Positions 36,450-43,858 of a DNA stretch of 64,000 bases are shown here, one piece after another. A program made the translations under genes and the position numbers. Source of the DNA: Streptomyces sp. NBC_00525 (GTDB lineage Bacteria; Actinomycetota; Actinomycetes; Streptomycetales; Streptomycetaceae); assembly GCF_036346595.1 (NCBI RefSeq), contig NZ_CP107834.1, positions 2,418,001 to 2,482,000 of the forward strand. The letters are read 5' to 3'. The first letter of the stretch is position 1. Each line of letters begins with the position of its first letter. Under the pieces are notes generated by a model, which saw only the letters and a program-made list of their open reading frames with translations, was not told the origin of the DNA and did not search any database.

Positions 36450-37343
36450 TCAGTCCCGCGCCGGGGCCACCCGCCCGGTCAGCGCCGCGAGCGAACTGCG
36501 TACGTGCGCCATGTGCGCCTGGACCTCCTCGCGGCCCTCCTCGTGCTCCCGCAGTATCCGCTCGGTCTCGCGCACCACCCGCTCCTCGCGCACCCGCGCA
36601 CGGGAGAGCAGCTCCGCCGCGCGCGCCTCGGCGTCCTCCCGGCCGTGCCGCGCGGCCTCCTCCGCCTCGGCCCGGACCCGCCGCGCCGCCGCCAGGTCCT
36701 CCTCCGCCCGCTCCAGCAGCGCGGCATGCTCGGCCGCCTGCGCCGCCTCCGCGTCCGCCAGCTCCCGCTCGGCCGCCTTCCACCGCTCGGCGTGCTCCTG
36801 CTCCTGGTGCGCCAGCACACTCGCGGTACGGGTGCGCGTCGCCTCCACCGCGGACGCCGCCTCCTCGCGCAGCCGCGCCGCCTCGGAACGCGCCGCCTCC
36901 AGCACCTCACCGGCCGCCGCCTCGGCGACCCCGACCACCTCGTCGGCCCGGCCCACCGCCGCCGCCCGCACCGCATCCGCGTCCGCCCGCGCCGCGTCCC
37001 GCAGGGCCAGCGCCGCCGCGTCCGCCTCGTCCCCCAGAGCCTGCGCCTCCTCGCGCGCGGCCGCCACGAGCGCCCCCGCCTCCTCGGCGGCCAGCGCGAG
37101 AATCCGCTGCGCCCGCTCCCCCAGCGACGCGTAGTCCTGGGGCTCCAGCCGCGCCACGACCTCGTCCAGCCGGGCGGACTCCGCCGCCAGCAGCTCCGCC
37201 CGCTCCATGAGCGCGGCCACCCGCGCCGCGGCCTCGTCCCGCTCGGCGGTGAGCGCCGCGACCGCGCGGTCCACCTGCTCCGGCCGGTAGCCACGCCCTC
37301 GTACACCGACGAACCCGTACGCGGACCCCGGTGCAGAACTCAT
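36450..37343 (-). CDS. DivIVA-like coiled-coil protein (cellulose-binding/FilP-Scy type)
   Basis: 297 residues from ATG 37343 (AGAGG upstream). The N-terminus FVGVRGRGYRPEQVDRAVAA is a DivIVA-type membrane-curvature head. Nearly all the rest (about 25-285) is an Ala/Glu/Arg-rich continuous coiled coil. Streptomyces proteins of this kind, often annotated as cellulose-binding, include cytoskeletal scaffolds related to FilP and Scy that act at hyphal tips. The specific role here is unknown. It converges with marR. Confidence 0.85.
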   Translation of the reverse strand: MSSAPGSAYGFVGVRGRGYRPEQVDRAVAALTAERDEAAARVAALMERAELLAAESARLDEVVARLEPQDYASLGERAQRILALAAEEAGALVAAAREEAQALGDEADAAALALRDAARADADAVRAAAVGRADEVVGVAEAAAGEVLEAARSEAARLREEAASAVEATRTRTASVLAHQEQEHAERWKAAERELADAEAAQAAEHAALLERAEEDLAAARRVRAEAEEAARHGREDAEARAAELLSRARVREERVVRETERILREHEEGREEVQAHMAHVRSSLAALTGRVAPARD

Positions 37344-37538: not shown

Positions 37539-40001
37539 TCAGATCAGCCCGTCCCACATCTGTTCCAGCAGCACCGACCACCAGCTCTCCGGCGACGCCA
37601 GCGCCGCCGCGTCCAGCGCCACCAGCTGCGCCTGGAAATCCACCGTCCAGCGGCCCGCCTGCTCCGGGTTCAGCCCGTACCGCAGCCGCCACATCCGGCC
37701 CAGCAGCGCCATGCAGCGCACGAACTCCGGCAGCCCCGTGTTCACGAACTGCGGCGGCACCGGCGCACCGCCCGGACCCGACTCCACCGGCACCGCCACG
37801 ATGTGCGCGGTCCCGTACTGGACACAGATCGCCCGGCCGAAGTCCGAACCCATCACCAGGTACGACCCGGCGTCCGAGGCCGGCTGCACCTGCCGCTGCG
37901 CGGCCAGCTCCGCCAGCGTCGGCACCACCGGCTGACCCGGCTGCGCCCAGAAGAACGGCCCGAAGTCGGCGGGCAGCCCCGCCCACACCAGCGTCCGCGC
38001 CACGATCTCCGGCACGCCCTGACGGGACACCGCCCGCTGGTCGAAGCGGAGCACACCCTGCGGACCGAAGGTCTGCAGCATCTCCTCCGCCAGCGCCTCC
38101 GGCGGGACCGGCGGCGCCGGCTGCATCTGCGGCAGCGGGGCACGCACCGGCGCCGGCCGCGCGGGACCGTCCGCCACCTGGTGCAACTCGCCCTGATGCG
38201 TGAGCAGATGCTGCATGCCCTGCTGCCGGCTGGCGTGGTCCGTGCCGTACGGGGCGACGGAGGTGATCCGCACCTGCGGCCAGGTCTCCCGGATCATCCG
38301 GGCGCAGTAGCCGCCGGGCAGCTCACAGGACTCCAGCTCCGTGTGCAGCTCGATCACCTGCTGCGGCGGAACGTTCATCGCCCGCAGCTCGTGCAGCATC
38401 TGCCACTCCGGATGCGGGGTGCCCGGCGCCGAGCGGCGGATCAGCTGCTGCTCACTGCCGTCCGGCGCCCGGAAGCGCAGCACCGCCTGGTAGCCCGGAC
38501 CCACGGTCGGCTGACCGGGGGGCGCCTGCGGATAGCCGTACGCCGGCGGCGGAGCCTGCCCCGGTACGCCCATCGGCGGGCCGGGCGGCTGCGGCGCGCC
38601 CGGACCGACCTGGCCCGGACCGGCGAGCATCGTCGCCGCGTGGTGCACCCCGCCGGGGCCGGGCGGCGGCGTCGCACCCGGCGGCGGGGGCGGCGGCTGC
38701 TGCCCGGCGGGCGCGCCGGGAGCACCGGGCGGGCCGGGCGGCTGCGGGGCGTGCGGGCCGGCCGCCTGGGGGTCGGCGAACATCGTGGCGGCCTGGTGCA
38801 CCCCGCCACCGGGCGGCGGCGTCGGCGGACCGGGCGGCTGCGGGGCACCGGGCGGGCCCAGCTGCGAGACGAGCTGCGTCGGCACATAGCCGCCCGCCGG
38901 GGCGCCGGGCGCACCCGGCCCCGAGGGCGGCGGCGGCACCGGAGCACCCGGCCGGGCACCCGGAACACCGGGGGCACCGGGCGGCGGAGGCGTCCCGCCC
39001 CGCGGGGAGCGCGGCGGGACGGCCGCCTTGCTCGTCGCGGCGTCGGCGATGTCCCCCGCGCCACCGGGCGGCGGGGTGGGCCGGCCGGGAACCCCCGGCG
39101 CGGGCGGCGGACCGGGCACACCGGGAACGGGCGGGCCCGGCACCGCGGTACCGGGAACGGGCGGTCCGGGCACGGCCGTACCGGGCACCGGCGGACCCGG
39201 CACCGGCGGGGCGGAGTTCGCCGGGTGGCCGCCCAGGCTCGGCGCGATCGCGGTCTTCGGCAACTGGCTGCCACCCGACATCAGCGCCGTGGGAGCGTCC
39301 GCCGGCACGACCGGGGGCAGCTCCTCCTCGTCATCGGCGCCGGAGAGCGGCGGCGCGAACACGGTCGCCGGCAGCGCCACCTCCGCGTCGTCCGCGCCGG
39401 CGCCGGTGTTCGTGTCGGTCCCGGCCCAGGGCGTGGCGCCCACGGGCGGCTGGAGCGAGGACGCCGGCACACCGTCCGACGCGGTCGGCTCGTACGCCAC
39501 GGACCCGCCCTGCGAAGGCGTCGGGGACGACGGGACCGGGGACGACGGGATCGGAGCCGGCGGCGGAAAGGACGACGGGGCGGCCGGGGCGGGCGGCGGG
39601 GTGTCGTCCCGCTCGGCACGCCGGTCCGGGATGCCCAGCTTGTCCGCCGCCTCCTGCAACCACTCCGGCGGGCTCAGCAGGAACGACGTCTGATTCAGGT
39701 CCACCCGCTCGGGCGGCGCCGGAGCGTCCGGCTCGACGTCCTGCGAGCCGTACTCCTCCTCGTACCGGCGGATCACCTCACCCACCGGCAGTCCGGGCCA
39801 CAGCGTCGCCTCACCGCTGTCCCGCGCGATCACCAGCCGCTGACGGCCGCCGTCCGACACCGGCCCGTCCGGACGGTCCTCGGCCCACACCACGAATCCG
39901 AGTTCGAATTCACGGACCCGCACCTCGCGGTGCTGATACGCAGGAACGTCACCGTTCACCCATTCGTCCGCGCGCTCCTGCGCCTGTGCGAAGGTCACCA
40001 T
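37539..40001 (-). CDS. Multidomain YrhB-type / deaminase / SUKH-4 protein
   Basis: 820 residues from ATG 40001 (GGAGGGG eight bases upstream). Residues about 1-85 resemble the YrhB/Imm35 immunity fold. A roughly 400-residue Pro/Gly/Ala linker with VPGPPVPGTA-type repeats follows. Residues about 504-615 resemble the XOO_2897-type deaminase: LHTELESC and LPGGYC provide His 553, Glu 555, Cys 559 and Cys 566, a plausible zinc and catalytic set. Residues about 640-820 match SUKH-4. One chain thus joins two immunity-type folds and a deaminase. No signal peptide, so it acts in the cytoplasm. It lies five bases after the SMI1/SUKH gene and is coupled to it. The substrate and role are unknown. Confidence 0.85.
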   Translation of the reverse strand: MVTFAQAQERADEWVNGDVPAYQHREVRVREFELGFVVWAEDRPDGPVSDGGRQRLVIARDSGEATLWPGLPVGEVIRRYEEEYGSQDVEPDAPAPPERVDLNQTSFLLSPPEWLQEAADKLGIPDRRAERDDTPPPAPAAPSSFPPPAPIPSSPVPSSPTPSQGGSVAYEPTASDGVPASSLQPPVGATPWAGTDTNTGAGADDAEVALPATVFAPPLSGADDEEELPPVVPADAPTALMSGGSQLPKTAIAPSLGGHPANSAPPVPGPPVPGTAVPGPPVPGTAVPGPPVPGVPGPPPAPGVPGRPTPPPGGAGDIADAATSKAAVPPRSPRGGTPPPPGAPGVPGARPGAPVPPPPSGPGAPGAPAGGYVPTQLVSQLGPPGAPQPPGPPTPPPGGGVHQAATMFADPQAAGPHAPQPPGPPGAPGAPAGQQPPPPPPGATPPPGPGGVHHAATMLAGPGQVGPGAPQPPGPPMGVPGQAPPPAYGYPQAPPGQPTVGPGYQAVLRFRAPDGSEQQLIRRSAPGTPHPEWQMLHELRAMNVPPQQVIELHTELESCELPGGYCARMIRETWPQVRITSVAPYGTDHASRQQGMQHLLTHQGELHQVADGPARPAPVRAPLPQMQPAPPVPPEALAEEMLQTFGPQGVLRFDQRAVSRQGVPEIVARTLVWAGLPADFGPFFWAQPGQPVVPTLAELAAQRQVQPASDAGSYLVMGSDFGRAICVQYGTAHIVAVPVESGPGGAPVPPQFVNTGLPEFVRCMALLGRMWRLRYGLNPEQAGRWTVDFQAQLVALDAAALASPESWWSVLLEQMWDGLI

Positions 40002-40006
40002 CGCGC

Positions 40007-40984
40007 TCACCCCTCCACCGGGACGACGTGCGCGAAGCCGCCGTCCACCATCAGGTTCGCCACCGTCTCCAGCTCCGGCGGGTTGCCCGCGAGCCGCTGG
40101 AGGAACGCGTCGAAGTCCTCACCGCACGGCAGCAGCAGCCGGTCCACCCGGTCCTGCACCGTCCAGCCGTCCCGGTCGCGCGCGTCGTCGTAGGCGCAGA
40201 ACCACACCGAGCCCAGACCCTCGCCCCGCACCTTCACCGCGAGAATGCCGCCCTGCACGAAGGCCACACCGAGGTAGTCCTTCGTCAGATGGTCGCGCAG
40301 GCACTTGTTCACGTACACCAGGTCGTTCACGGCGGCCTCCTCGCGCACCGTGAAGAACGGCTGGTCGATCAGCAGCCCCAGCTCCGCGTCCAGCGCCGTA
40401 CCCACCGGAGCCGCGCCACCGGCCGCCTTGAGGAACGAGCGGTACGCACCCGGCAGCCGGTAGCCGAGGTCCTCCTCGACGCCCAGGATCTGCTGCTCGC
40501 TCACCGCGACCGACCCCTTGGGCAGCCGGAAGTGCGCGGGCCGGGTCTCCTGGAGCGGGCGCGTACCCCGCTTGTCCAGGTCCACCTCGGTCGACGCCAG
40601 CCCCGCGTGGTGGCGCAGCAGCGCCTTCACCTCGACCGGAACCAGCTCCATCCGCCGGCCGCCCGGCACGTGGTGCCAGGTCCAGCCGTGCGGGGTCGCC
40701 ACCGGCGGGATCGTGTCCCACAGCTCGTGGCCGGCCTCCGCCATCGCCGCGTTCGCCGACACGTAGTCCGTCAGCCGCAGCTCGTCCACGCCGAAACCCT
40801 GCGGAGGCTCCGCGATCTCCGCCGCCGCCCGCGCGTACGGCGAGAAGTCCGGGCAGCCGTTCTCGTCCATCCGCACCCCTCTGGGGTGGCGCGAGGCCCG
40901 GACCGGGTCCGGGAAGTGCACGAGCTGCCCGGCATAGGCCGCGTTCGGTGGCGCGGCTTCCTGCCCGAGCCGACCTGTCGTCAT
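40007..40984 (-). CDS. SMI1/KNR4 (SUKH) family protein
   Basis: 325 residues from ATG 40984 (AGGGGGC upstream). The C-terminal half carries the SUKH fold (VEEDLGYRLPGAYRSFLKAA, LVYVNKCLRDHL, FDAFLQRLAG). The N-terminal half (about 1-150) contains FGVDELRLTDYVSANAAMAE and ELWDTIPP and resembles an HNH-type or toxin-like region that I cannot identify. SUKH proteins are immunity proteins for nuclease and deaminase toxins. It is upstream partner of the deaminase/SUKH-4 gene. Confidence 0.87.
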   Translation of the reverse strand: MTTGRLGQEAAPPNAAYAGQLVHFPDPVRASRHPRGVRMDENGCPDFSPYARAAAEIAEPPQGFGVDELRLTDYVSANAAMAEAGHELWDTIPPVATPHGWTWHHVPGGRRMELVPVEVKALLRHHAGLASTEVDLDKRGTRPLQETRPAHFRLPKGSVAVSEQQILGVEEDLGYRLPGAYRSFLKAAGGAAPVGTALDAELGLLIDQPFFTVREEAAVNDLVYVNKCLRDHLTKDYLGVAFVQGGILAVKVRGEGLGSVWFCAYDDARDRDGWTVQDRVDRLLLPCGEDFDAFLQRLAGNPPELETVANLMVDGGFAHVVPVEG

Positions 40985-41108
40985 GGCGGTTGCCCCCTGC
41001 TGCGTCCGGCTGATGAGGACCGACCCAGGGGGTCGTCCAGGCACAGCCTAAGCGGTGACCCCCGTACGGGAACCGGCCCCGCCGCCTCCGGACCACTTCC
41101 GTCACCAA

Positions 41109-41128
41109 CCGTCACAACGGTGTGACGG
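41109..41128. promoter_or_regulatory. Perfect inverted repeat in the divergent promoter of the deaminase/SUKH cluster
   Basis: CCGTCACA and TGTGACGG flank ACGG in the 300-base region between the two divergent halves of the cluster, with extra GTCAC half-sites at 41101. A separate 14-base palindrome, GCAGCGGCCGCTGC, lies at 41248-41261 just before the YwqJ-type gene. Otherwise this gap holds no gene. A shared regulator for both halves is a reasonable inference. Confidence 0.5.
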
Positions 41129-41284
41129 ACGAGCGACGGGAAGGCCACCGAATCGCGACACGCGACCACGTTTCACCGACCCAGCTTTCACAGGACCCGA
41201 CACATTTGGCAGGCTGTCACCCGCATACACGGGGGCGTGCACATTCTGCAGCGGCCGCTGCGGGCACGGGAGGGACACAGCACC

Positions 41285-41818
41285 ATGCACACCGCACACT
41301 CTGCACAGACCGTCACCACCGGGGACCCACGACTCAGCTGGAGCAGCACCGATCAGGGCCTCGCCCCCCGGCTCGGCCAGCGCCGCGACGGCATCCTGCC
41401 CGCCGTCGCCGCCGCCCTGTCCGTACGCGGCGAGACCCTCACCTGCACCGCGGGCAAGGGCGACCAGCCACCCGTCCTGCACCACCTCGTACAGGACTTC
41501 CTCGACACCCTCCCCAGCGCGCAGCGCGAACGGTTCACCGGCCGCTGCCCCGAAGCCATACTGCTCTCCCGCCACCTCACCGCCACCGAGGCCGGACGCT
41601 CCAAGCGGGCCCAGCGCAAGCCCCTCACCAACGGGGAGGCGCGCCGCGCCCTCAAGCACTCCCGGCTCACCGCGCGCCGCATCCGCGAGGACGGCGACCC
41701 GCTGCACGGCAGCTACGCGGCACCCTGCCGCTCCTGCGCCGTGATGCTGGCCCACTTCGGCGTCCGCCCCGTGGACATCACCACGACCGGCGCGGCCACC
41801 ACCGCAGAGAAGGGCTGA
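41285..41818 (+). CDS. YwqJ-like nucleic acid/nucleotide deaminase
   Basis: 177 residues from ATG 41285 (GGGAGGG ten bases upstream). The deaminase signature is clear: GRCPEAILLSRHL with Cys 88 and Glu 90 (CxE), and AAPCRSCAVMLAHFGV with Cys 148 and Cys 151 (PCxxC). These are the zinc ligands and the proton shuttle of the cytidine-deaminase superfamily; the YwqJ branch is known from polymorphic toxin systems. Here there is no secretion or toxin-delivery domain. The SUKH-3 gene follows after eight bases, the layout of toxin and immunity pair. Confidence 0.9.
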   Translation: MHTAHSAQTVTTGDPRLSWSSTDQGLAPRLGQRRDGILPAVAAALSVRGETLTCTAGKGDQPPVLHHLVQDFLDTLPSAQRERFTGRCPEAILLSRHLTATEAGRSKRAQRKPLTNGEARRALKHSRLTARRIREDGDPLHGSYAAPCRSCAVMLAHFGVRPVDITTTGAATTAEKG

Positions 41819-41826
41819 CCGCGCCC

Positions 41827-42351
41827 ATGCACGACCGCACCGACCTGCCCGCGCAGTCCGGCCCTGAGCGGCCGGCCGCCCCCCGCTTCCCGGCCGCCGT
41901 GGACACCGCCCTGCGGGCCGCCGGCTGGCAGCCCGGCCGCTGGGACATCCGCCAGGCCGAGGAGTGGGCCGACGCGCTGCGCTCGTACGCCTCACCCGCC
42001 GGGCACCGGCACGCCGTCTTCCCGGCCGCCGTCGAGGCGTGGGCCGAGTTCGGCGGGCTGCGCGTCACCGCCACCGCGCCCGGCCGCCAGATCGCGCCGC
42101 CGGCCGTCCGCATCGACCCACTGAGCGGACTGCACCTGGCCCGCACCCTCGGCGACCTGGGCCGGGCGCTGGACACGGAGGTGGCGCCGCTCGGCGAGGA
42201 GGGGGAGGGCCAGGCGGTCTTGGCGATCGATCTGACCGGGCGGGTGTACTCCATCGACCACACCGGCGACTGGTATCTGGGCCGGGACATCGACACGGCC
42301 CTCGCGACGCTGGTCACGGGGCTCCAGCCGGAGCGGCTGGTCTCGGGCTAG
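41827..42351 (+). CDS. SUKH-3 domain immunity protein
   Basis: 174 residues of the SUKH-3 family: ALRAAGWQPGRWDIRQAEEW near the start, FPAAVEAWAEFGGL in the middle, and GRVYSIDHTGDWYLGRDIDTA at the end. It lies eight bases after the YwqJ-type deaminase gene and would be its cognate inhibitor. The start ATG 41827 has no strong ribosome binding site, so translation probably depends on the upstream gene. Confidence 0.9.
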   Translation: MHDRTDLPAQSGPERPAAPRFPAAVDTALRAAGWQPGRWDIRQAEEWADALRSYASPAGHRHAVFPAAVEAWAEFGGLRVTATAPGRQIAPPAVRIDPLSGLHLARTLGDLGRALDTEVAPLGEEGEGQAVLAIDLTGRVYSIDHTGDWYLGRDIDTALATLVTGLQPERLVSG

Positions 42352-42360
42352 TCCCCTGCC

Positions 42361-43689
42361 CTAGGCGGACGCCGCGGTGGCGCCGTCGGCGCCGGTGCCC
42401 TCGTCCGGCAGGACCGCCGAGACGCGGAAGCCGCCCTTGTCCGTGGGGCCCGAGACGAACACGCCGCCCAGGCCCAGCACCCGTTCGCGCATGCCGACCA
42501 GGCCGTTGCCCCCGCTGGGCAGCCCCGCGTCCGCCGTCGCCGCGTCGGACGGGCCGTTCTCCACCTGCATCGCGACCTCGGCGTCCCGGTGCGCCAGCCG
42601 CACCCACGTCCTCGCGCCGGCCGCGTGCTTGTGGACGTTGGTGAGGGCCTCCTGCACCACCCGGTACGCCGTCTGCTCGACCTCGGGCGCGTACGCCCGC
42701 GCGTCGCCCTCCACCGACAGCTCCACGGTCATCCCGGCGGCCCGCGACTGCCCGACCAGCGCCTCCACCTCGTCCAGGCGCGGCCCGTCCTCCGCCGCCG
42801 CCTGCGCCGCCCGGCCGACCGCGGCCAGCGGCACCTTGTCCACGCGGGTCATCATCGGGTCGCCGGTCCGCAGCACGCCCAGCATCTCGCGCAGCTCGGT
42901 GAGCGCCTGGCGGCCCATGTCGCCGACCAGCGCCGCGTTGCGCACGGCCTTGGCGGGGTCCTTGGGCGCCACCGCCTGGAGCGCCGCCGCGTGCACCACC
43001 ATCAGGCTCACCCGGTGGGCCACCACGTCGTGCATCTCGCGGGCGATCCGGGTGCGTTCCTCGGTGCGGGCCCACTCGGCGCGCTCCTCGGCCCGGTCGG
43101 CGAGCAGTGACAGCTCCCGCTCCAGCGAGTCGGCCCGCTCCCGCAGGCTCTCCATCAGCCGGCGCCTGGCCCCTATGTACAGGCCGAACAGCACGGGCGG
43201 GGCGGTCAGCCCGACGGCCATGAAGAGGGACAGCATCGGCACGTACCAGTCGCCGGGCCCGAAGTCCGCGTTCTCGTCGACGCCCTGGCGCAGCCGTACG
43301 TAGGTCACGATGAACGTCCCCACCAGGGACATGCTCATCAGCACGGCGGTGATCCGCCGGGGCACCTCGGACGCGGCCAGCGTGTAGAGCCCCACCAGGC
43401 CCATCAGGAAGCCCATCTCGGCGGGGGTCGTCGCGATCGAGACCAGCACCACCGCGATCGGCCAGCGCCGCCGCACCAGCAGCACGGCCCCGGCGAGCAG
43501 CCCGAACACCACCCCCAGGGGCACGGGCAGCCCCGCGTCCCCCGCGAACGCCACCCCTTCGAGTCCGCATTCCAGCGCCGACACCAGCGCCAGTCCCCCG
43601 TCGAGCGCGACACTCCGTCGCCGTTCCCACCACCAGTAGCCACGGGTGGTCGAACCCGCCGCTTCCCGGTCTGCCCCCGTTGCGGTCAT
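42361..43689 (-). CDS. NarL/DesK-type sensor histidine kinase (orphan)
   Basis: 442 residues from ATG 43689. About six membrane helices (about 25-190) precede a coiled coil. The HisKA_3 dimer domain contains REMHDVVAHRVSLM with the phospho-His, and a HATPase domain follows (VQEALTNVHKHA, GNGLVGMRERV). It belongs to the class that partners LuxR-type response regulators, but none is adjacent. Its partner may be one of the orphan NarL-type genes elsewhere, such as those at 58.3 or 63.0 kb; that is speculation. An upstream open frame of 49 codons overlaps the tRNA promoter region and is not used. Confidence 0.92.
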   Translation of the reverse strand: MTATGADREAAGSTTRGYWWWERRRSVALDGGLALVSALECGLEGVAFAGDAGLPVPLGVVFGLLAGAVLLVRRRWPIAVVLVSIATTPAEMGFLMGLVGLYTLAASEVPRRITAVLMSMSLVGTFIVTYVRLRQGVDENADFGPGDWYVPMLSLFMAVGLTAPPVLFGLYIGARRRLMESLRERADSLERELSLLADRAEERAEWARTEERTRIAREMHDVVAHRVSLMVVHAAALQAVAPKDPAKAVRNAALVGDMGRQALTELREMLGVLRTGDPMMTRVDKVPLAAVGRAAQAAAEDGPRLDEVEALVGQSRAAGMTVELSVEGDARAYAPEVEQTAYRVVQEALTNVHKHAAGARTWVRLAHRDAEVAMQVENGPSDAATADAGLPSGGNGLVGMRERVLGLGGVFVSGPTDKGGFRVSAVLPDEGTGADGATAASA

Positions 43690-43858
43690 GGCATCCAGCC
43701 TACGGGCGCCCGCATCCCATTTACGGAGTACCCGTCCAGCACGTCCCGCCGCCGGTTCCGGCGATCCGCATCCTCGTCGCGTACAAGGGGCTTGGTACGG
43801 CATAGTGTTGGGTGCCGATCGGGCAGACCGGAGCAATGTCCGGTATGAACCGATTCAG

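Follow-up and report, generated by a model that had tools for sequence, protein, structure and literature searches.

Three toxin-type domains with SUKH partners in a delivery-less gene cluster that seems to be a resident trait of Streptomyces and its family

What are toxin-type domains doing in a bacterial chromosome when the genes that encode them carry no recognisable part for delivery out of the cell? Polymorphic toxin domains are regarded as fast-changing weapons. The question is raised by a compact divergent cluster of four genes, here called A, B, C and D, in a 64,000-nucleotide stretch of Streptomyces sp. NBC_00525 (NZ_CP107834.1, positions 2,418,001 to 2,482,000; this whole stretch is called the window below). 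Judged by its profile matches, the locus is a set of three toxin/SUKH modules: a WHH nuclease domain with SUKH-1 (A), an XOO_2897 deaminase with SUKH-4 (B), and a YwqJ-type deaminase (C) beside SUKH-3 (D). Here weapons that bacteria use against each other seem to have turned into permanent components of the cell, and we give an even chance to the reading that they form a domesticated core set of delivery-less polymorphic-toxin/immunity modules.

The domain content rests on Pfam matches. Gene A matches WHH (residues 96-130, E 1.3e-11), Colicin-DNase (39-126, 1.9e-9) and SUKH-1 (161-296, 5.4e-11), B matches XOO_2897-deam (501-601, E 2.6e-36) and SUKH-4 (638-814, E 1.6e-46), C matches YwqJ-deaminase (E 3.5e-27), and D matches SUKH-3 (E 7.6e-57). 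The WHH, XOO_2897-deam and YwqJ matches are all above the Pfam cut-off, and these are families known from polymorphic toxin systems; each toxin-type domain has a SUKH partner, in cis for SUKH-1 and SUKH-4 and in the adjacent gene for SUKH-3. A first-pass annotation of this DNA had named the XOO_2897 deaminase, SUKH-4, YwqJ, SUKH-3 and SMI1/SUKH domains, and the profiles bear it out. It had also counted two deaminase-type domains, both of which are supported by Pfam; the count was incomplete, as A also matches WHH and Colicin-DNase and there are therefore three toxin-type domains, not two. Its gene coordinates and strands, two divergent halves, gap of about 300 bases and start of D eight bases after C all hold (Table 1): the start codons of A and C are 300 bp apart, and in the window 8 bases lie between the stop of C and the start of D. 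The spacing between A and B is 5 to 8 bases in all 26 measurable loci, and that between C and D is 10 bases in 45 of 62 loci (start codon chosen by rule); with such short intergenic spacing, A-B and C-D are each probably one transcription unit.

Protein B has the domain order Imm35-like, Pro-rich linker, XOO_2897 deaminase, SUKH-4. That one chain combines a deaminase with two immunity folds, as the first pass had remarked, agrees with this architecture; the remark was incomplete in that the chain belongs to a wider protein family. Its YrhB-like start has no Pfam match of its own, and the link to Imm35 runs through a homologue of the N-terminal part (L158, 35% identity), which matches Imm35 at E 0.0013, under the curated cut-off. 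In agreement with the earlier claim from the sequence, no delivery domain was found in any of the genes: Pfam gave no match for a signal peptide, a transmembrane segment, WXG/LXG or an RHS part in A-D, and the top 19-residue hydropathy across the four proteins is 0.82-1.16, with no strongly hydrophobic segment. An NCBIfam search of the cluster proteins gave nothing over a cut-off.

Table 1. Features of the cluster (window coordinates)
Feature	Coordinates	Strand	Details	Basis
Gene A	40007..40984	-	325 aa; WHH nuclease domain fused to SUKH-1	Pfam
WHH nuclease region of A, residues 34-130	40595..40885	-	W103-H104-H105, K120, H125	
SUKH-1 domain of A, residues 161-296	40097..40504	-		Pfam
Gene B	37539..40001	-	820 aa (823 if GTG 40010 is the start)	Pfam; N-terminus by weak transitive link
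Imm35/YrhB-like domain of B, residues 1-128	39618..40001	-		Homologue L158, Imm35 below cut-off
Pro-rich linker of B, residues 129-494	38520..39617	-	Repeated T-x-[FLIMV] motifs	
XOO_2897 deaminase domain of B, residues 501-601	38199..38501	-	H530, E532, C559, C566	Pfam, model, fold comparison
SUKH-4 domain of B, residues 638-814	37560..38090	-		Pfam
Gene C, YwqJ-type deaminase	41285..41818	+	177 aa; C88, E90, C148, C151	Pfam
Gene D, SUKH-3	41827..42351	+	174 aa	Pfam
Palindromic operator-like site in the divergent region	41109..41128	.	CCGTCAC-N6-GTGACGG	Conserved in homologous regions

Is the cluster peculiar to this strain? We searched 101 same-genus genomes (own included), 61 family genomes from 17 genera, and a class-wide sample of 296 genomes (28 of the own genus). 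Gene A is present in 96 of the 101 same-genus genomes at 77-92% identity (own copy excepted), and two of them contain an extra match to A, one being a 36% relative. Among 80 named Streptomyces loci found with A (the best 80 of 561), tblastn for nine window genes found C and D in 79 each, B in 78, the neighboring histidine kinase in 76 and glmU in 74; the misses of C, D, the kinase and glmU lie at ends of the fetched contig. Absence of B from L041 and L074, suggested by the lack of a tblastn match, was ruled out, the start of B being visible on translation; the locus in L074 is rearranged. Across the family, C and D are found in 61/61 genomes and 17/17 genera. A matches 57 of the 61 genomes, three of which (genus g5) hold relatives of about 40% identity, leaving 54 genomes in 15 of 17 genera; the C-terminal part of B matches 58, of which four g5 genomes match weakly and in the deaminase part only, again leaving 54. 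The cluster is thus kept across Streptomyces, where the first-pass annotation had proposed to look for it, and in its family, and these orthologues rule out a one-off curiosity. In one genome (G147) C and D lie on two contigs, and in another (G114, genus g15, locus L214) they are about 2.5 kb apart and not adjacent. In the class-wide sample, A is found in 3 of 268 genomes outside the own genus (35-49% identity) and the C-terminal part of B in 4 of 268 (36-39%).

Loss of the cluster in some Streptomyces was considered for the five genomes without A. In three of them a contig ends near the locus (in G014 and G081 the neighboring histidine kinase is close to a contig end, and in G008 C is about 0.6 kb from one), and in the other two (G033 and G099, with no kinase match at E 1e-60) a true loss is at most possible. 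On plasmids we found distant relatives only, in 6 (A), 1 (C) and 4 (C-terminal part of B) records, all below 60% identity, and in phages there was no match for A, the sole protein searched there. A mobile origin of the present locus was rejected on these two grounds, i.e. no close plasmid copies and no phage match for A.

Does the cluster evolve like a set of weapons? The median pairwise dN/dS (up to 600 random pairs per domain; 444 pairs for the Imm35-like domain) is 0.153 for the nuclease and 0.168 for the SUKH-1 domain of A, 0.187, 0.125 and 0.180 for the Imm35-like, deaminase and SUKH-4 domains of B, and 0.224 and 0.238 for YwqJ (C) and SUKH-3 (D), respectively; by this measure all toxin and immunity domains are alike under purifying selection. 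Mean identity to the window, computed in 59 loci with all genes (51 loci for the linker), is 94% for the deaminase of B. The nuclease, SUKH-1 and SUKH-4 domains stand at 88% each, the Imm35-like domain and GlmU at 87% each, C at 83%, D at 81% and the linker of B at 31%. By these values the deaminase of B is more conserved than its own SUKH-4 domain and than GlmU. Pairwise distances in 51 loci correlate with those of GlmU (A 0.78, B 0.72 and 0.75, C 0.79, D 0.86). Diversity of C-termini between close strains was not seen in Streptomyces, where the same domains recur at 77-92% identity. Based on the low dN/dS, the identities and the distances tracking GlmU, this looks like a core gene set inherited with the chromosome, unlike an arms-race locus.

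The deaminase sites are invariant in the orthologues examined. In C, residues C88, E90, C148 and C151 are found in 79/79 sequences (79 loci minus one short row, plus the window), in agreement with the earlier expectation that the CxE/PCxxC set is retained, and both motifs are also kept in five other family loci. In B, H530, E532, C559 and C566 (a HxE plus two-Cys zinc set) are found in 60/60 sequences (the window and 59 of the 78 loci, namely those with an end and 700 or more residues). In A, residues W103, H104, H105, K120 and H125 are found in 81/81 Streptomyces sequences, and an HNH/colicin-type fold was found for the nuclease domain. A structure model together with a fold comparison gave a deaminase fold for B at the place where the first-pass annotation had put it (residues 504-615). 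Foldseek with the B model gave no match under E 0.001, so this fold rests on Pfam and on the second-look fold comparison; a sequence search of solved structures with the C-terminal part of B and with C gave nothing useful. The HTE at residues 553-555 of B was tried as the zinc motif and ruled out, as spacing and model put the site at H530-x-E532. Three SUKH-4-deaminase fusions on Streptomyces plasmids retain HPE and both Cys. The invariant, strongly constrained deaminase sites of the cluster disfavor a purely passive role.

Where might such modules come from? In a locus of genus g5 (L149), the genes after that of a 2301-residue effector (WXG100_2, Gln_amidase, WHH) encode SUKH-1, a nuclease-SUKH-1 fusion, YwqJ and SUKH-3; CxE was not found in the aligned part of the YwqJ copies of L149 and L151. 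One Streptomyces plasmid encodes WXG100_2-YwqJ, SUKH-3, YwqJ alone and SUKH-3, and two plasmids encode a SUKH-4-deaminase fusion, another gene, WXG100_2-deaminase and SUKH-4. From these arrangements (delivery-less copies beside full toxins in L149, L218, L219 and L223), each of the three warheads has a delivery-less, SUKH-partnered copy beside a delivered toxin, and in the window locus all three delivery-less kinds stand together with no delivered toxin. We infer that the locus descends from delivery-less second copies accompanying WXG100 (type VII) toxins. A profile search for YwqJ, the one warhead family sought in this way, gave no second such domain in the own genome.

Some details of these relatives may be recorded. 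The plasmid fusions (L218:4467-9195, L223:3440-8191 and L220:2497-6306) have a reversed domain order and intact zinc residues, and they lie one gene ahead of a WXG100 protein (the WXG100-like protein of L220 runs off the stretch). The YwqJ-type protein at L157:5379-7786 (481 aa) has a PE-like start below threshold, and after it comes one open frame with SUKH-3 before YwqJ. Paralogues of B of about 440-450 aa, with the order Imm35-like, degenerate deaminase, SUKH-4, are found at L176:7495-8844, L177:7087-8403, L178:7823-9139 and L172:6804-8126, and in L176-L178 a protein of 649-767 residues without a confident Pfam match adjoins the paralogue.

The divergent region contains a perfect repeat, reported in the first pass and seen at 41109-41128 as CCGTCACA-ACGG-TGTGACGG, which is commoner than chance in homologous regions: 52 of the 78 divergent regions compared (79 loci with both genes, one region longer than 700 bp dropped) match CCGTCAC-N6-GTGACGG with no more than 2 of its 14 positions differing, versus 0.4% of dinucleotide shuffles, a count that kinship inflates. 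The loop of the palindrome is variable and its arms are constant, with a symmetric change of both arms in some loci; the remaining 26 regions have at least 3 mismatches, so the palindrome is not present everywhere. Elsewhere in the own genome there is a single match to the relaxed pattern, inside an open reading frame (ORF), and a wide regulon was rejected on this ground; that match (L217:4392) sits in the ORF of a flavoprotein-like gene (named by eye). BldD and Crp were set aside as binders, the spacing or orientation of the site being at odds with what we take to be their consensus, and a scan for sigma-70 promoters and terminators gave nothing useful. The linker of B has 6.5 T-x-[FLIMV] motifs per protein versus 2.05 in shuffles (repeats include HHAATM[LF]A, APTALMSG and LPATVFAP), and these are possible phosphorylation or docking sites.

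Under the reading of a domesticated core set, the modules would go back to delivery-less second copies such as accompany WXG100 (type VII) toxins, and their proteins would remain inside the producing cell, where each SUKH domain would restrain its enzyme. A signal, perhaps acting via the linker of B with its motifs or via the operator common to both halves, would free the two deaminases, which would then modify nucleic acid within the cell, with the WHH domain of A probably serving as a weak or non-cutting nucleic-acid binder. The likely purpose would be an internal effector system that kills part of the mycelium, recycles nucleotides or responds to infection; of all the steps in this explanation, the purpose is the least secure. 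A bolder version, which we put forward as speculation and consider rather unlikely, is that the arsenal was turned inward as a core self-acting system, in which intact deaminases and a non-cutting nuclease-derived binder are SUKH-restrained and released in mycelial development or infection, as a counterpart of AID/APOBEC and CIDE; the altered nuclease of A may there read the GTCAC-N6-GTGAC operator and so balance the divergent halves.

Several observations weigh against a self-acting domesticated set. The known task of SUKH proteins is immunity to toxins that come from outside. In A, K120 replaces a motif His in 81/81 sequences, so the full WHH nuclease motif is not present; WHH domains that are free or delivered have a His at this position (those of the L149 giant effector, L159, the T6SS-linked L221, and PDB 8bd1 and 8h8a). 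All five other nuclease-SUKH-1 fusions examined lack one motif His as well, with Lys at the K120 place in L148, L149 and L151, WAH in L152 (whose chain ends within SUKH-1) and WTH in L153. In this small sample, SUKH-1 fusion and loss of one nuclease His appear to coincide, and with one motif His missing the WHH domain of A is probably a weak or non-cutting nucleic-acid-binding module. Four Imm35-deaminase-SUKH-4 paralogues of B lack both Cys, and three of them also the His, i.e. their deaminase is dead; together with the altered nuclease site, these make a non-catalytic role fit in part. The Imm35-like identity of the B N-terminus is weakly supported, the match being below the curated cut-off and made via a homologue only. 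Genera g2 and g5 keep C-D without the core A-B, so the four genes need not occur together.

The main rival is that the cluster is a polyimmunity ('vaccination') locus, to which we assign a minority chance that has to be taken seriously. Its four immunity-type domains (SUKH-1, SUKH-4, SUKH-3 and Imm35-like), whose presence together is a feature of such loci, would shield against type VII toxins of kin or competitors that have WHH, Tox-PL1, XOO_2897 or YwqJ warheads, and the cis toxin domains would be decoys, folding partners or stabilisers. Such toxins do occur: the giant effector of L149 joins WXG100_2, Gln_amidase (papain-fold toxin 1) and WHH, and plasmid toxins join WXG100_2 with XOO_2897 or YwqJ. 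SUKH is listed for WHH, YwqJ, XOO_2897 and Tox-PL1, and Imm35 for Tox-PL1, in excerpts of PMC3482391, and the altered nuclease sites of the fusions and the dead B paralogues suit a non-toxic role. A purely passive role, however, needs neither invariant deaminase residues nor a deaminase more conserved than its immunity domain, and the SUKH sequences change as slowly as the other domains. There is a toxin-type domain in every module, whereas such loci are usually without toxin genes or cassettes according to the same excerpts (PMC3482391), and the own genome is without a second YwqJ domain (kin toxins would sit in other strains).

We consider it improbable that the cluster is an anti-phage (abortive infection) system in which infection releases the deaminases or the nuclease from SUKH restraint. 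The enzyme types and the in-cis restraint would fit, but PADLOC gave no match for any of A-D at E 0.01, defence genes are not usually found at a fixed chromosomal position throughout a family, and the close copies are without mobile context. Export by another route, e.g. loading into a contractile injection system or type VII secretion in trans, is very improbable: all three warheads have relatives that WXG100 toxins deliver, and cytoplasmic loading would require no signal peptide, but an inhibitor is fused to two of the three enzymes, no WXG100, LXG or RHS part is present, and no delivery genes were noted in the syntenic block, where just nine window genes were sought. That silent warheads are stored as orphan cassettes for recombination into a toxin gene is barely plausible, for while delivery-less copies do stand beside full toxins elsewhere, the locus lacks a delivered parent, no domain swapping was seen among the orthologues examined, the cluster is fixed family-wide, and fusion to SUKH would spoil a warhead.

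Downstream of B on the same strand is a gene for a coiled-coil protein (36450-37343; tblastn matches in 62 of 80 loci), whose DivIVA match (E 0.17) is not significant. The histidine kinase gene (42361-43836) separates D from glmU, as it does in 76 of 80 loci, and the S. coelicolor orphan kinase SCO3119 may be its counterpart; excerpts of PMC13170358 name SCO3119, a histidine kinase, as a possible AtrA target, and excerpts of PMC9739842 list it as an orphan kinase. In genus g2 (L154:8628-14145), C-D adjoins pth, rplY-like and prs genes, on the other side of glmU, and there is no A-like gene upstream.

Our literature search returned no study of this cluster among the matches listed, and its novelty is provisional. 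In this bacterial family, three polymorphic toxin domains are a fixed feature of the chromosome. Should the deaminases act inside the cell that makes them, the cluster offers a gene set for testing nucleic-acid damage or editing inside the Streptomyces mycelium; if polyimmunity is true, it would be an old, near-universal Streptomyces shield against type VII toxins.

How does the cluster compare with known systems? It resembles the WXG100/type VII polymorphic toxin loci (in the excerpts of PMC3482391) in its warhead and immunity families and their pairings, and delivery-less second copies occur there too (L149, L218, L219 and L223); it differs in having neither a delivery part nor a delivered parent, in its fixed chromosomal site and vertical inheritance over the family, and in joining toxin and immunity in one chain for two modules. 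Unlike the RhsP-WHH/RhsPI pair (PDB 8bd1), A carries SUKH-1 in the same chain, is without an Rhs part and has a Lys where one motif His would be. Polyimmunity proteins and loci, as described in those excerpts (PMC3482391), likewise hold several immunity-type domains per protein or locus, with SUKH prominent, whereas the cluster keeps toxin-type domains with invariant deaminase sites. Like a type II toxin-antitoxin system, C-D consists of a small enzyme gene followed by its partner gene, with no export part and a palindrome in the promoter region, but the families are different, the cluster is core chromosomal and two of its modules are fused. The AID/APOBEC deaminases and the CIDE nuclease are domesticated toxin domains in animals according to excerpts of PMC3482391; the cluster is bacterial and retains its inhibitor, and what it would share with them is that nucleic-acid enzymes derived from conflict have been made resident.

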